Part shown: positions 1,669 to 11,512 of the stretch, one piece after another
How the letters are laid out: the number at the start of each line of letters is the position of its first letter
Position numbering within the stretch: position 1 is the first letter of the stretch
IMG/VR virus record: IMGVR_UViG_3300043172_000056
Span: 1-25,265 of that record
Length of the DNA: 25,265 nt
Origin: a virus
Strand: one strand, 5' to 3'
Notes under the pieces: model-generated
Seen by the model: only the letters and a program-made list of their open reading frames with translations
Told to the model about the DNA's origin: nothing
Database searches by the model: none
Translations under genes and position numbers: made by a program

Positions 1669-2787
1669 ATGAAAAGACGATTAAAACCACAAGAAGCAAG
1701 CGCGCTAGGATTTACGGTAAAACCAAGCCCCTCAGAAGGAAACCCAAGATACCAACTAAACGACGAACAAGAAGAAAACCTCATTAAATTGCGTAATGTT
1801 GGAGTTATTGAAAGTTGCGATAGTTTATCAATAGATCCTACAACCGCAAAACATTTATGGAAAAAAGACAAAGGATCAAGTATTTTCGTTAAAAATCCGA
1901 TGTATATAAACCTGGAGGAACAAGAAAAAATAGACCAAGTAAAAGTACTACACGATAAATTTATTACTGACATTAAAAACTATTCTTTTAAATATCCTAA
2001 GTTTAAACGATCAGAAATAAAAGACCCACACTGTTTAGTCTTCGATGCCGCAGATATCCATATAGGTAAGATTTGCAGTTCTTTTGAAACGGGCGAAACA
2101 TACAACAGCCAAATAGCAGTACAACGCGTTAGAGAAGGTTTAGCGGGTATTATAAATAAGTCGAAAGGATTTAATATTGATAAGGTTATTTTTATCACAG
2201 GTAATGATATTTTACATGTTGATAACGCAGCTAGTTCTACAACAAGCGGAACACATCAAGATACCGATCAAATGTGGTACGATAATTTTATGATGGGTAA
2301 GAAATTACTAGTTGAAATCATAGAAACATTGCTCACTATTGCAGATGTAGAGGTGGTTTACAATCCATCTAATCACGATTTTACACACGGGTTTATGTTA
2401 TTGGATAGTATTTCTTCATGGTTCCATAATTGCAAACAAATAACGTTTGATAACGACATGCGACACAGAAAATACACTATTTACGGTAAAAATCTAATTG
2501 GTAGTACTCACATGGACGGTGCAAAAGTTGAGAAAATGCACGGTTTAATGGCAGAAGAAGCGAGCGAACATTGGCACACCTGCAATCATAGGTACTTTTA
2601 CGGGCATCACTTACATCATAAAGTTGCAAAAGACGTGTTTAGTGTATGTGTTGAGACTTTAAGAAGTCCAAGCGGAACGGATGGTTGGCATCATAGGAAC
2701 GGTTTTCAGTTTGCGCCAAAAGCAGTCGAAGGATTTATACATCACAAAACATTAGGTCAAGTAGCAAAATTAGTTCACATATTTTAA
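1669..2787 (+). CDS. Calcineurin-like metallophosphoesterase, putative nuclease
   Basis: The 372-aa protein carries the ordered metal-binding motifs of the calcineurin-like phosphoesterase fold: D129-x-H131 (DIHIGK), G178-N-D180, S234-N-H-D237 in place of the usual GNHD/E, a further His at 281 (GSTHMDG), and G312-H-H with His 315-316 close by. Members of this fold include SbcD/Mre11-type nucleases. A DNA-processing role beside the ERF protein is an inference. The first 80 residues precede the catalytic domain and contain a short helix-turn-helix-like stretch (SIDPTTAKHLWKK, about 54-66). The ATG at 1669 is chosen over the in-frame ATG at 1609, which would overlap the previous gene by 46 bases. 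The stop overlaps the next start as TAATG. Confidence 0.85.
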   Translation: MKRRLKPQEASALGFTVKPSPSEGNPRYQLNDEQEENLIKLRNVGVIESCDSLSIDPTTAKHLWKKDKGSSIFVKNPMYINLEEQEKIDQVKVLHDKFITDIKNYSFKYPKFKRSEIKDPHCLVFDAADIHIGKICSSFETGETYNSQIAVQRVREGLAGIINKSKGFNIDKVIFITGNDILHVDNAASSTTSGTHQDTDQMWYDNFMMGKKLLVEIIETLLTIADVEVVYNPSNHDFTHGFMLLDSISSWFHNCKQITFDNDMRHRKYTIYGKNLIGSTHMDGAKVEKMHGLMAEEASEHWHTCNHRYFYGHHLHHKVAKDVFSVCVETLRSPSGTDGWHHRNGFQFAPKAVEGFIHHKTLGQVAKLVHIF

Positions 2788-2981
2788 TGGCTAAACAGGA
2801 CAAATATCAATTACCTTTAAGTACGTTAATAACAGTAACGGCACGTAAAGGTAATTTTTGCTATATTGAAAACATGACGTTTGAACAGGCTTTAAATAGA
2901 GCTGAGGCTAATCGTAATAACGGATGGAGCTACAAAAACTACAAGCTAGGATATTGCGAGATGAAAGAAAAACATAAATAA
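2787..2981 (+). CDS. Hypothetical small phage protein, 64 aa
   Basis: The start codon overlaps the phosphoesterase stop (TAATG), so translation is likely coupled. The protein is basic and polar, begins MAKQDK, has a strand-rich first half (LSTLITVTARKGNFCYI) and a helical middle (FEQALNRAEANRNNGW). Two cysteines at residues 29 and 57 are not arranged as a metal site. I do not recognise the family. It is the last gene before a non-coding gap of about 200 bases, and its final codons fall in an 8-bp AU-rich inverted repeat (AACATAAA/TTTATGTT) with no T tract, too weak to call a terminator. Confidence 0.65.
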   Translation: MAKQDKYQLPLSTLITVTARKGNFCYIENMTFEQALNRAEANRNNGWSYKNYKLGYCEMKEKHK

Positions 2982-2994
2982 TATTACTTTTATG

Positions 2995-3025
2995 TTGTGA
3001 GAACTAATAAAAGGTTGTATATTGC
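2995..3025 (+). promoter_or_regulatory. Putative Bacteroidota-type promoter for the structured RNA
   Basis: TTG at 2995-2997 and TATATTGC at 3018-3025 are 20 bases apart. This resembles the Bacteroidota -33 TTG and -7 TAnnTTTG arrangement, with a shortened T run in the -7 box. Transcription would start near 3031-3034, about ten bases before the large hairpin. Called from pattern only. Confidence 0.45.
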
Positions 3026-3032
3026 AGCATCT

Positions 3033-3165
3033 AACGATATATAATATAGGTCGTATGGCAGGGGGGAGATGTTGCGTTTTAGTGGAGATGCATTGAAGCT
3101 AAGAAGCGCGGTTAAAAAGCGACATGTTTACCGCTCCCTCCTGCGATATTACCTATATTTAAATA
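3033..3165 (+). ncRNA. Candidate structured non-coding RNA (long GC-rich hairpin)
   Basis: The 208-base gap 2982-3189 has no plausible gene but folds strongly. Bases 3043-3051 (AATATAGGT) pair with 3151-3159. A 4-bp helix (3053-3056 with 3146-3149, one G-U) follows. Bases 3058-3068 (GCAGGGGGGAG) then pair with 3134-3144 over 11 bp with one G-U. The arm is 26 nt long with two mismatches. Inside it, 3069-3080 (ATGTTGCGTTTT) pairs with 3114-3125 over 12 positions with one mismatch and one G-U, closing a 33-nt loop. The run of six G in an AT-rich phage is unusual. The promoter-like box upstream would start transcription just before the helix. No T-rich terminator follows, so it may be a long 5' leader of the gene at 3190. 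It fits no RNA class I can name. Confidence 0.6.
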
Positions 3166-3189
3166 ACTTAACAATCTAAAATAAATATT

Positions 3190-3570
3190 ATGAACGAAGA
3201 ACAAGAATTTCCTTTATTCCCAGAACTAACAGAAGAAGGGAAAAAGCAAGCACAAGACTTAATGATTAAGTTCGATAAGCAACTTTTAGATAGAGCAAAG
3301 GAATTGATAGGAACAATCACAAATGAATTCTACTACGAAATAGCTAACGAGGTTGAGAGCGATCATTGGTTTAATTACAGGCAAAAAATAATAGATGGAA
3401 TATCTAATTATAATAACAAAGGTCATTCAAAGCATGATTTTGATACTATTAGAAAAGCTATTTACAGAAACCATAAAGAAGAGATTGTAAAAGACTTGAA
3501 TCAAGACTTATTAAAAGAGATAGAAGATTTAAAAAAGAGACTAGAAAACGCTTATTCAAGTAGATTTTAA
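3190..3570 (+). CDS. Hypothetical phage protein, 126 aa
   Basis: An acidic protein preceded by the AAATATTATG leader. Residues 15-50 look like one long helix, a Trp/Tyr-containing middle (SDHWFNYRQKI) follows, and the C-terminal 30 residues (LNQDLLKEIEDLKKRLENAY) form a probable coiled coil. No membrane segment, signal peptide or catalytic motif is visible. It is the first gene after the structured RNA, so it could be controlled by that element if the RNA is a leader rather than a separate transcript. I do not recognise the family. Confidence 0.7.
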   Translation: MNEEQEFPLFPELTEEGKKQAQDLMIKFDKQLLDRAKELIGTITNEFYYEIANEVESDHWFNYRQKIIDGISNYNNKGHSKHDFDTIRKAIYRNHKEEIVKDLNQDLLKEIEDLKKRLENAYSSRF

Positions 3571-3592
3571 CAACTAACAACCCGCAAATAAT

Positions 3593-3638
3593 CCACCCGC
3601 TACAACTAAATATTGTGATTTTCCAAGTAGCGAGGTGG
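3593..3638 (+). other. Strong intergenic RNA hairpin with a bulged A
   Basis: CCACCCGCTAC at 3593-3603 pairs with 3627-3638 (GTAGCG, bulged A at 3633, GGTGG), giving an 11-bp stem around a 23-nt A/T-rich loop. There is no T tract after it, so it is not a standard terminator. It ends 26 bases before the ATG at 3665 and could act as a leader structure, processing site or protein-binding hairpin. Confidence 0.5.
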
Positions 3639-3664
3639 TAAGGGTTAATCTAAAAACTATAACC

Positions 3665-3817
3665 ATGCCAGATATTTCAATGTGCAAAAACATCACATGT
3701 TCAAAAAGACAAACATGTCACCGATTTACAGCAACTCCTAATCCATACAGACAAACATACGCGGAGTTTGTAGAAGATCTAACTGATGGCGGTTGTGAAT
3801 ACTATATTAAAAACTAG
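3665..3817 (+). CDS. Small cysteine-rich phage protein, 50 aa
   Basis: The ATG at 3665 is preferred over a GTG at 3635 because the GTG lies inside the hairpin and the protein then begins MPDISMCKN, as in small cysteine-rich proteins I recall from other phage genomes. Cysteines at residues 7, 12 and 18, in the order C-x4-C-x5-C-HRF, and a fourth at 44 near a CEYY end suggest a small metal-binding or disulfide-free knot fold. Metal binding is inferred, and the biochemical role of this type of protein is not known to me. It sits in the early orphan cluster, 5 bases before the next small ORF. Confidence 0.7.
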   Translation: MPDISMCKNITCSKRQTCHRFTATPNPYRQTYAEFVEDLTDGGCEYYIKN

Positions 3818-10249: not shown

Positions 10250-10582
10250 ATGGACGTAATACTAATAACAGATGCAGAAGGAGAAAGAGCATACGATAAG
10301 TACGGAGAAGAAATAAAACTAAATAAAATGGAAAACAAAGAACTAATAAAGAAAGCTAAAGAGATTATATTAAAAGGAGCTAAGCAGGTGAATATTGAGT
10401 TGCCTGAGTTTGAGATTGATATTGAATATGATATAAAATTCCTTAGACCAGCAGTAAATAATAAAAATCCTTATGCGTGCCTTAATTCTGCATTTGATTT
10501 CGAAGAAGGGAAACATGATGATGATGCTTTTTGGCGGTGGATTGCTTTATGCGATAAACTACCTAAAACCATAAACAACTAA
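10250..10582 (+). CDS. Hypothetical acidic protein, 110 aa
   Basis: The frame opens with a strand DVILITDAEGERAYDKYGEEI, but an in-frame ATG at 10328 (MENKELIKKAKEIILKG) could be the true start, since it begins a clear helix. The C-terminal part has NKNPYACLNSAFDFEEGKHDDDAFWRWIALCDKLP, acidic with two Trp. No motif of known activity is seen. It lies after the leader with the dyad and may be under its own control. I do not recognise the family. Confidence 0.65.
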   Translation: MDVILITDAEGERAYDKYGEEIKLNKMENKELIKKAKEIILKGAKQVNIELPEFEIDIEYDIKFLRPAVNNKNPYACLNSAFDFEEGKHDDDAFWRWIALCDKLPKTINN

Positions 10583-10611
10583 CAATCAACAACTAAGTCA
10601 ACATGCGCCAC

Positions 10612-10668
10612 GGGCAATATAATGCTAATTAACATGTATATTAACTAATAAATAGCAACATACTGCCC
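10612..10668 (+). other. Intergenic RNA hairpin
   Basis: GGGCA (10612-10616) pairs with TGCCC (10664-10668), TAT with ATA just inside, and TGCTA (10623-10627) with TAGCA (10653-10657), around an AU-rich loop. No T tract follows. It lies in the 116-base gap ahead of the small gene at 10699. Confidence 0.4.
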
Positions 10669-10698
10669 ACAGCGTAGAGACAATAAAAACAAAACGAT

Positions 10699-10845
10699 AT
10701 GAACCATTACGAAATAGAATACGAATACGGAGACGGATTTACAGACGGAATAATTTACGAAGGCGAAACAGTTATTGACGCTATAAACAGTTATATTGAA
10801 GATAATGGACAAATTCATGATATAGTTTGTGTAACCCTAGTTTAA
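10699..10845 (+). CDS. Very small acidic protein, 48 aa
   Basis: ATG 10699 follows AAAAACAAAACGAT, a variant of the leader seen at 9079 and 9325, which supports translation. The product is acidic with an N-terminal strand of alternating Glu and Tyr (HYEIEYEYGDGF), a helix (ETVIDAINSYIEDNG) and a final strand (DIVCVTLV). It is probably a small alpha/beta fold. Function is unknown. Between its stop and the next promoter, 10846-11000, only a 24-aa frame is seen. Confidence 0.55.
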   Translation: MNHYEIEYEYGDGFTDGIIYEGETVIDAINSYIEDNGQIHDIVCVTLV

Positions 10846-10902
10846 GAACAGCAGCAATACATAAGGCAAATGAAATATTTAATAATTTAAAGTAAACGAG
10901 AT

Positions 10903-10977
10903 ATGAAAGAATATACAGGAATAGAATTAATATCAGTAGAGGAGATGCTAGAAATATTAGAACGAATAGATAATTAA
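10903..10977 (+). CDS. Possible 24-aa peptide
   Basis: ATG 10903 to TAA 10977 encodes an acidic amphipathic helix (MKEYTGIELISVEEMLEI, then LERIDN). The leader AAACGAGAT resembles that of the gene at 10699. The length gives little support, so it may be chance. Confidence 0.25.
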   Translation: MKEYTGIELISVEEMLEILERIDN

Positions 10978-11000
10978 ACAACACTTAAATAATAAAAGAC

Positions 11001-11010
11001 TATCTTTACA
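11001..11010 (+). promoter_or_regulatory. Putative promoter of the sigma-factor gene, TATCTTTACA
   Basis: The box is identical to 9998-10007 and both are followed by a YAG trinucleotide. It is 16 bases from ATG 11027, so transcription would begin about ten bases before the start codon. No good -33 TTG is seen. It implies that host RNA polymerase reads the sigma gene. Confidence 0.5.
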
Positions 11011-11026
11011 TAGAAAAACAAAACAC

Positions 11027-11512
11027 ATGCTAGAAGATATTTGCAAAAAAGATAAGTATTGGAGAACAACAGCGACGTTTATATGTAAAAACAAAACTAT
11101 TGCAGACGATCTAGTCCAGGATATGTATTTAAAAGTTAGCACGATTACAAAGCCTATAAACGATTATTATATTATATTGATAATACGTAACCTTTGGATT
11201 GACATGTGTCGTAAAAAAGGTACTACAGTTGATATAGATAGCCTTTACTACATAGAAGACAAAGAGCATACATTTGAACCAGATGATTACGAAGCGAAAC
11301 TATTAGATAAAGCGAGTAGTCTAAAGTATGTTCAACAAGAATATCTAAAAGAAAGCTTTGACAGAACGCTTAGACAGATTGGAGAGGAGTATAAAACTAA
11401 TTATGGTTTTGTATATCGAGAGTTGGACAAGGCAAGAAAGGAGGTGTTAGGATCTGATTACGCTGAGAAGTATAATAATAAAAGATTGAAGTATAGAAAA
11501 CCTAAAAAATAA
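11027..11512 (+). CDS. Phage-encoded sigma-70-like (ECF-type) factor
   Basis: The 161-aa protein looks like a reduced sigma factor. The region 2-like part is at residues 24-63: IADDLVQDMYLKV corresponds to the core-binding helix (region 2.1/2.2 pattern ADDLVQDxFLKx), and IIRNLWIDMCRKKG corresponds to the -10 recognition helix (RNxxxDxxRK). The region 4-like end, about residues 103-140 (KESFDRTLRQIGEEY, then FVYRELDKARKEV), has a helix-turn-helix layout. It sits immediately before the terminase genes, where a late-gene activator would be expected. A host-type box drives it. Sigma activity is inferred, and region 4 is weaker than region 2. It ends four bases before the next gene. Confidence 0.75.
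   Translation: MLEDICKKDKYWRTTATFICKNKTIADDLVQDMYLKVSTITKPINDYYIILIIRNLWIDMCRKKGTTVDIDSLYYIEDKEHTFEPDDYEAKLLDKASSLKYVQQEYLKESFDRTLRQIGEEYKTNYGFVYRELDKARKEVLGSDYAEKYNNKRLKYRKPKK

Follow-up and report, generated by a model that had tools for sequence, protein, structure and literature searches.

A statistically strong hairpin upstream of an accessory phage gene: a possible mRNA leader in an exchangeable slot

The gap upstream of a gene starting at position 3190 in a viral genome raises the question of whether the phage carries an unusual RNA there, and of what such an RNA would do. The sequence analysed (the window) is a stretch of 25,265 nt from IMG/VR record IMGVR_UViG_3300043172_000056, and corresponds to the opening 25 kb of a viral contig 35 kb long. 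The window encodes an Erf-like annealing protein and a DNA repair exonuclease family protein (phrog_704), and contains a weak match to sigma region 2. Among named phages, the exonuclease-like protein is nearest to Flavobacterium phage proteins (55%), which suggests a Bacteroidota host. The original prediction, made from the letters alone, placed a large GC-rich structured RNA at 3043-3159 and suggested that it may be either an undescribed phage RNA or a leader of gene 3190.

Read as plus-strand RNA, the left arm (3043-3068) and the right arm (3134-3159) of the hairpin pair at 24 of 26 positions, with two G-U pairs among them. The pairs run in blocks of 9, 4 and 11, the two mismatches are C-U and G-G, and the identity of the arms read as DNA is 85%. 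The 26-position helix with two mismatches was thus recovered as predicted, as was a run of six G residues paired with a C-rich arm. The real sequence also folded better than shuffled sequence, as the original prediction implied: the 165 nt at 3025-3189 gave -51.4 kcal/mol, compared with -33 +/- 3.64 when shuffled (z -5.05), with none of 200 shuffles as good, and the 117-nt core (3043-3159) reached a z of -6.4. The hairpin was the most stable of all 120-nt windows in the whole sequence on both strands. The best folds of 24 locally shuffled windows (block shuffling) ranged from -28.5 to -37.4 against the real -51.4, and a Gumbel fit put the chance of this value at about 6e-5, a rough figure with few shuffles behind it. 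Among the related phage loci, only L032 and L033 had lower folds, in repeat-rich stretches that were higher in GC. The 3043-3159 hairpin is a real and statistically strong feature.

The strength is confined to the stem. When folded alone, the 65-nt middle (3069-3133, plus strand) gave -13.3, compared with -12.7 +/- 2.5 when shuffled (z -0.25; 178 of 500 shuffles as good), and it has several near-equal folds. The inner 12-position helix of the original prediction did not hold up, as it contains a G-A mismatch and is a mere alternative (-48.2 when constrained, versus -50.9 for a junction fold), one among several folds within about 3 kcal/mol. As all of the excess structure lies in the two 26-nt arms and the middle is no better than shuffles, 'large structured RNA' is an overstatement; what survives of that description is the strength of the stem and the GC content, which is 45% in the hairpin element versus 33% in the window. 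The evidence supports one strong stem, not an elaborate RNA.

Contrary to the claim that the region has no open frame, an ATG at 3069 opens a frame of 36 codons on the plus strand that ends with a TAA at 3179. Its synonymous-codon score was -1.39 against -0.90 +/- 0.12, the lowest of 183 equal-length gene segments in the window, and its log-odds score lay below that of every in-frame segment. This indicates that the frame is probably not a gene, although the codon test could miss a recently acquired foreign gene. No relatives of the 36-aa product were detected in phages by tblastn.

The promoter-like block (2982-3025, plus strand) was present as described, with TTG at 2995-2997 followed after 20 nt by TATATTGC at 3018-3025. 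Four of the six key positions in the -7 element of Flavobacterium (consensus TAHHTTTG; PMC6847099) are matched by this octamer, and all six by its counterpart in L003, TATATTTG. A start near 3030 is predicted when position -12 of the -7 element is set at 3018. Such motifs are common in AT-rich DNA, with nine similar sites in the window. The TTG, TA and ATT of the block are invariant across four phages, and this conservation is a better argument for a promoter than the motif itself. Downstream, a scan covering loops of 3-8 found no terminator-like sites in 2780-3700, and no T run follows the stem in TAAATAAC, so that the hairpin does not have the stem-then-T-run form of an intrinsic terminator.

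Comparison with the closest viral contigs (L003, L004 and L111) placed the hairpin within a variable region. Similarity extends from a conserved 64-aa gene at 2787-2981 on the plus strand (94% identity in L003, 78% in L004 and 89% in L111) through the TTG to the -7 region, and is followed by divergence. Two other genes occupy the slot in L003, one in L004 and one in L111, and in all three phages a gene starts about 25-40 nt after the promoter-like block with no hairpin between. The right edge is marked by a conserved structured element at 3571-3658 (plus strand), which is also present in L003 (7066-7153), L004 (6650-6742), L111 (3519-3611) and L063 (314-414). This is an intergenic stem-loop with AACCC/GGGTT outside and CCACC-CGCTAC/GTAGCG-GGTGG inside; the type in L004 and L063 has CCGC/GCGG versus CCAC/GTGG elsewhere, an A-U to G-C change that was read by eye and that automatic alignment moved by one column. 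As the relatives share the edges of the slot and hold other genes, the hairpin and gene 3190 are one alternative among several that fill an exchangeable slot, and the hairpin is no fixed companion of either neighbouring gene. The mapped accessory slot, from conserved promoter-like block to conserved structured element, is the more useful by-product of this analysis and gives searches for cargo genes and RNAs in these phages a defined location.

Gene 3190 (3190-3570, plus strand), the gene likely to be controlled, is an accessory phage gene of 126 aa with relatives at about 41-45% identity in Desulfofustis phage LS06-2018-MD01 and several viral contigs. In distant phages, a W-x-NYR motif is invariant among its relatives. 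The protein could be assigned to no convincing known family or function, and its structure model (pLDDT 53) was too poor to use. The window hairpin was absent upstream of the sampled relatives, and none of five distinct upstream regions of distant relatives contained a comparable long stem, which indicates that gene 3190 does not need the stem. Inspection of the relatives ruled out a hairpin as a constant feature of gene 3190, since only the Desulfofustis phage also has one and it is unrelated in sequence. That hairpin (3925-3968 in L069, OP947158.1) has 18 perfect pairs, lies 17 nt before the start codon of the relative of gene 3190, has a z of -8.1 and may serve that phage as a separate terminator-like or leader element; a single case is no pattern. 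Gene 3190 itself occurs at 97% identity in L063, a contig that begins inside the gene and is therefore silent on whether the hairpin travels with it.

Homologues of the hairpin were sought in several collections. Rfam covariance models gave no match at gathering score, in agreement with the original prediction, which could match it to no known ncRNA class, and a permissive search returned chance miRNA models only. A covariance model built from the single sequence likewise led to no homologue: it matched the window alone among 67 loci, nothing credible in 34 whole records (one weak match, E 0.07), nothing at E 0.001 in 365 phylum-level genomes and only weak matches in 397 family-level genomes. 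BLAST with the hairpin gave short pieces only in phages and short chance-level matches only in 397 family-level and 395 class-level genomes. Exact and degenerate arm and loop patterns, searched in all viral contigs, found the window's own record and chance matches, and the GTDB genome collection lacked a 22-mer from the hairpin middle. In all, sampling covered about 1,150 Bacteroidota genome draws; matches in them were not significant once the number of genomes was counted, and those checked were unrelated coding sequence in different frames or an unrelated hairpin. A one-sequence model and exact patterns are weak tools, with which a viral-contig relative at 70-80% identity could be missed.

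One viral contig, L066, contains an exact 22-nt match (TAGTGGAGATGCATTGAAGCTA) to the hairpin middle at 10806-10827 on the minus strand, where a match to an 18-mer of the middle lengthens to 22 nt within a non-coding stretch beside a manA-like RNA. It was rejected as a homologue because the stretch folds like shuffles and has no wider support, and by our own estimate one to two 18-mer matches are expected by chance; the match is probably coincidental. The surrounding 10540-11330 (minus strand) comprises about 750 nt with little coding sequence; besides the manA-like RNA (E 3e-10, under the Rfam gathering score), it includes a T-arm-like GGTTCGAGCCC and a final T run. This stretch is possibly a larger unrecognised RNA.

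Most likely, this is a common type of mRNA leader hairpin and not a new RNA class. Of the two options in the original prediction, the leader fits the layout, in which the promoter-like block is followed by the hairpin about 13 nt past the predicted start, by no terminator and by gene 3190 about 30 nt downstream; the large RNA is not supported, given a middle that looks random and a search that found neither homologue nor covariation. The fuller proposal, that the hairpin acts in cis in the 5' leader of gene 3190 and arrived together with the accessory cassette, is advanced tentatively and falls just short of probable. We infer that transcription would begin from the promoter-like block near 3030 and that the transcript would fold into the 24-pair stem about 13 nt from its 5' end. 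As no terminator follows the stem, the transcript should continue into gene 3190, with its AT-rich, unstructured start region. Long stems near the 5' end of an mRNA or between genes are usually ribonuclease substrates or barriers, and by analogy a ribonuclease or stability role may carry over to Bacteroidota phages. On the mRNA, the stem could be a target for RNase III, provide a 5' structure that slows decay or insulate gene 3190 from read-through out of the upstream gene, with translational control of gene 3190 as a further option.

Several observations favour a leader hairpin: the strength of the stem and its uniqueness in the window, the position of the promoter-like block at the same place in four phages with differing slot genes, the lack of an intrinsic terminator in the scanned region, the non-coding appearance of the inner frame and the upstream hairpin, of unrelated sequence, beside the gene's relative in the Desulfofustis phage. 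In addition, the stem ends about 30 nt before the ATG at 3190 and leaves the AT-rich start region stem-free, which is consistent with the finding that structure near the start codon lowers initiation in Flavobacterium (PMC6847099). The reading is weakened by the incomplete -7 element, by the lack of detected homologues and hence of covariation, and by the three other phages, whose genes follow the same block directly.

A cassette-borne inverted repeat acting at the DNA level, either a small insertion of MITE-like or foldback type or a palindrome bound by a protein, with the RNA fold as a by-product, is rather unlikely and is the strongest competitor. It would account for a non-random signal limited to the arms, for a composition unlike that of the window and for the lack of the hairpin in the corresponding slot of three close relatives. 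A TA-flanked reading of the arms is possible (TA-GGT...ACC-TA, at 3047-3048 and 3154-3155), which carries little weight in AT-rich DNA, and the minus strand of the region also beats shuffles. However, the plus-strand RNA fold is clearly stronger than the minus-strand fold, and no second copy was found in the phage's own 35-kb record, for the arm consensus in all viral contigs, or by BLAST in about 790 genome draws at family and class level. The two G-U pairs, which make up two of the four differences between the arms and are not statistically telling, are compatible with selection on RNA and too few to prove it.

The very stable body and a promoter-like block of its own directly upstream would also suit an independent phage small RNA, transcribed from that block, released by processing and serving as a trans-acting regulator, decoy or sponge. 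This is unlikely, as its 3' end would have no terminator, its middle is structured no more than expected by chance, no antisense target above chance was found within the window, and neither an Rfam family nor a homologue was detected. A small RNA of a type not yet described, autonomous and borne as cargo by the accessory slot (for example, a decoy or counter-defence RNA directed at the host), is more doubtful still and would be a surprise. A small protein gene formed by the 36-aa frame, whose start codon adjoins the stem, is highly improbable: the frame is open and is preceded by AGGGGGGAG, but its codon score ranks last, it has no phage relative, and the GGGGGGAG immediately 5' of its ATG is unlike the A-rich sequence around the starts of neighbouring genes.

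Among known systems, the large ornate GOLLD and ROOL RNAs (PMC12286853) resemble the hairpin in being non-coding RNAs in phage sequence, but they are far longer, conserved and structured throughout, whereas the hairpin is one stem with no Rfam match. Prokaryotic MITEs (reviewed in PMC10969869) are likewise short and non-coding, with inverted terminal repeats, possible TA flanks and atypical composition; the window hairpin has 26-nt arms in the place of terminal repeats, but it is a single copy, and no related elements or transposase were found. RNase III processing hairpins and 5' stabilising stems resemble it in having a long and nearly perfect stem that lies between genes or in a leader. The RNase III sites of T7 early mRNA are processing hairpins. 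In Escherichia coli, 5' stem-loops such as that of papA lengthen mRNA life (work cited in PMC3997798). The loop region of the window hairpin (65 nt) is longer than in the usual examples, and processing or stabilisation is putative here. With 24 pairs, its stem reaches the roughly 20 nearly continuous pairs expected of an RNase III-type or stabilising leader stem, and if it is a leader hairpin it would be a single strong case for a group of phages whose transcripts are little documented.
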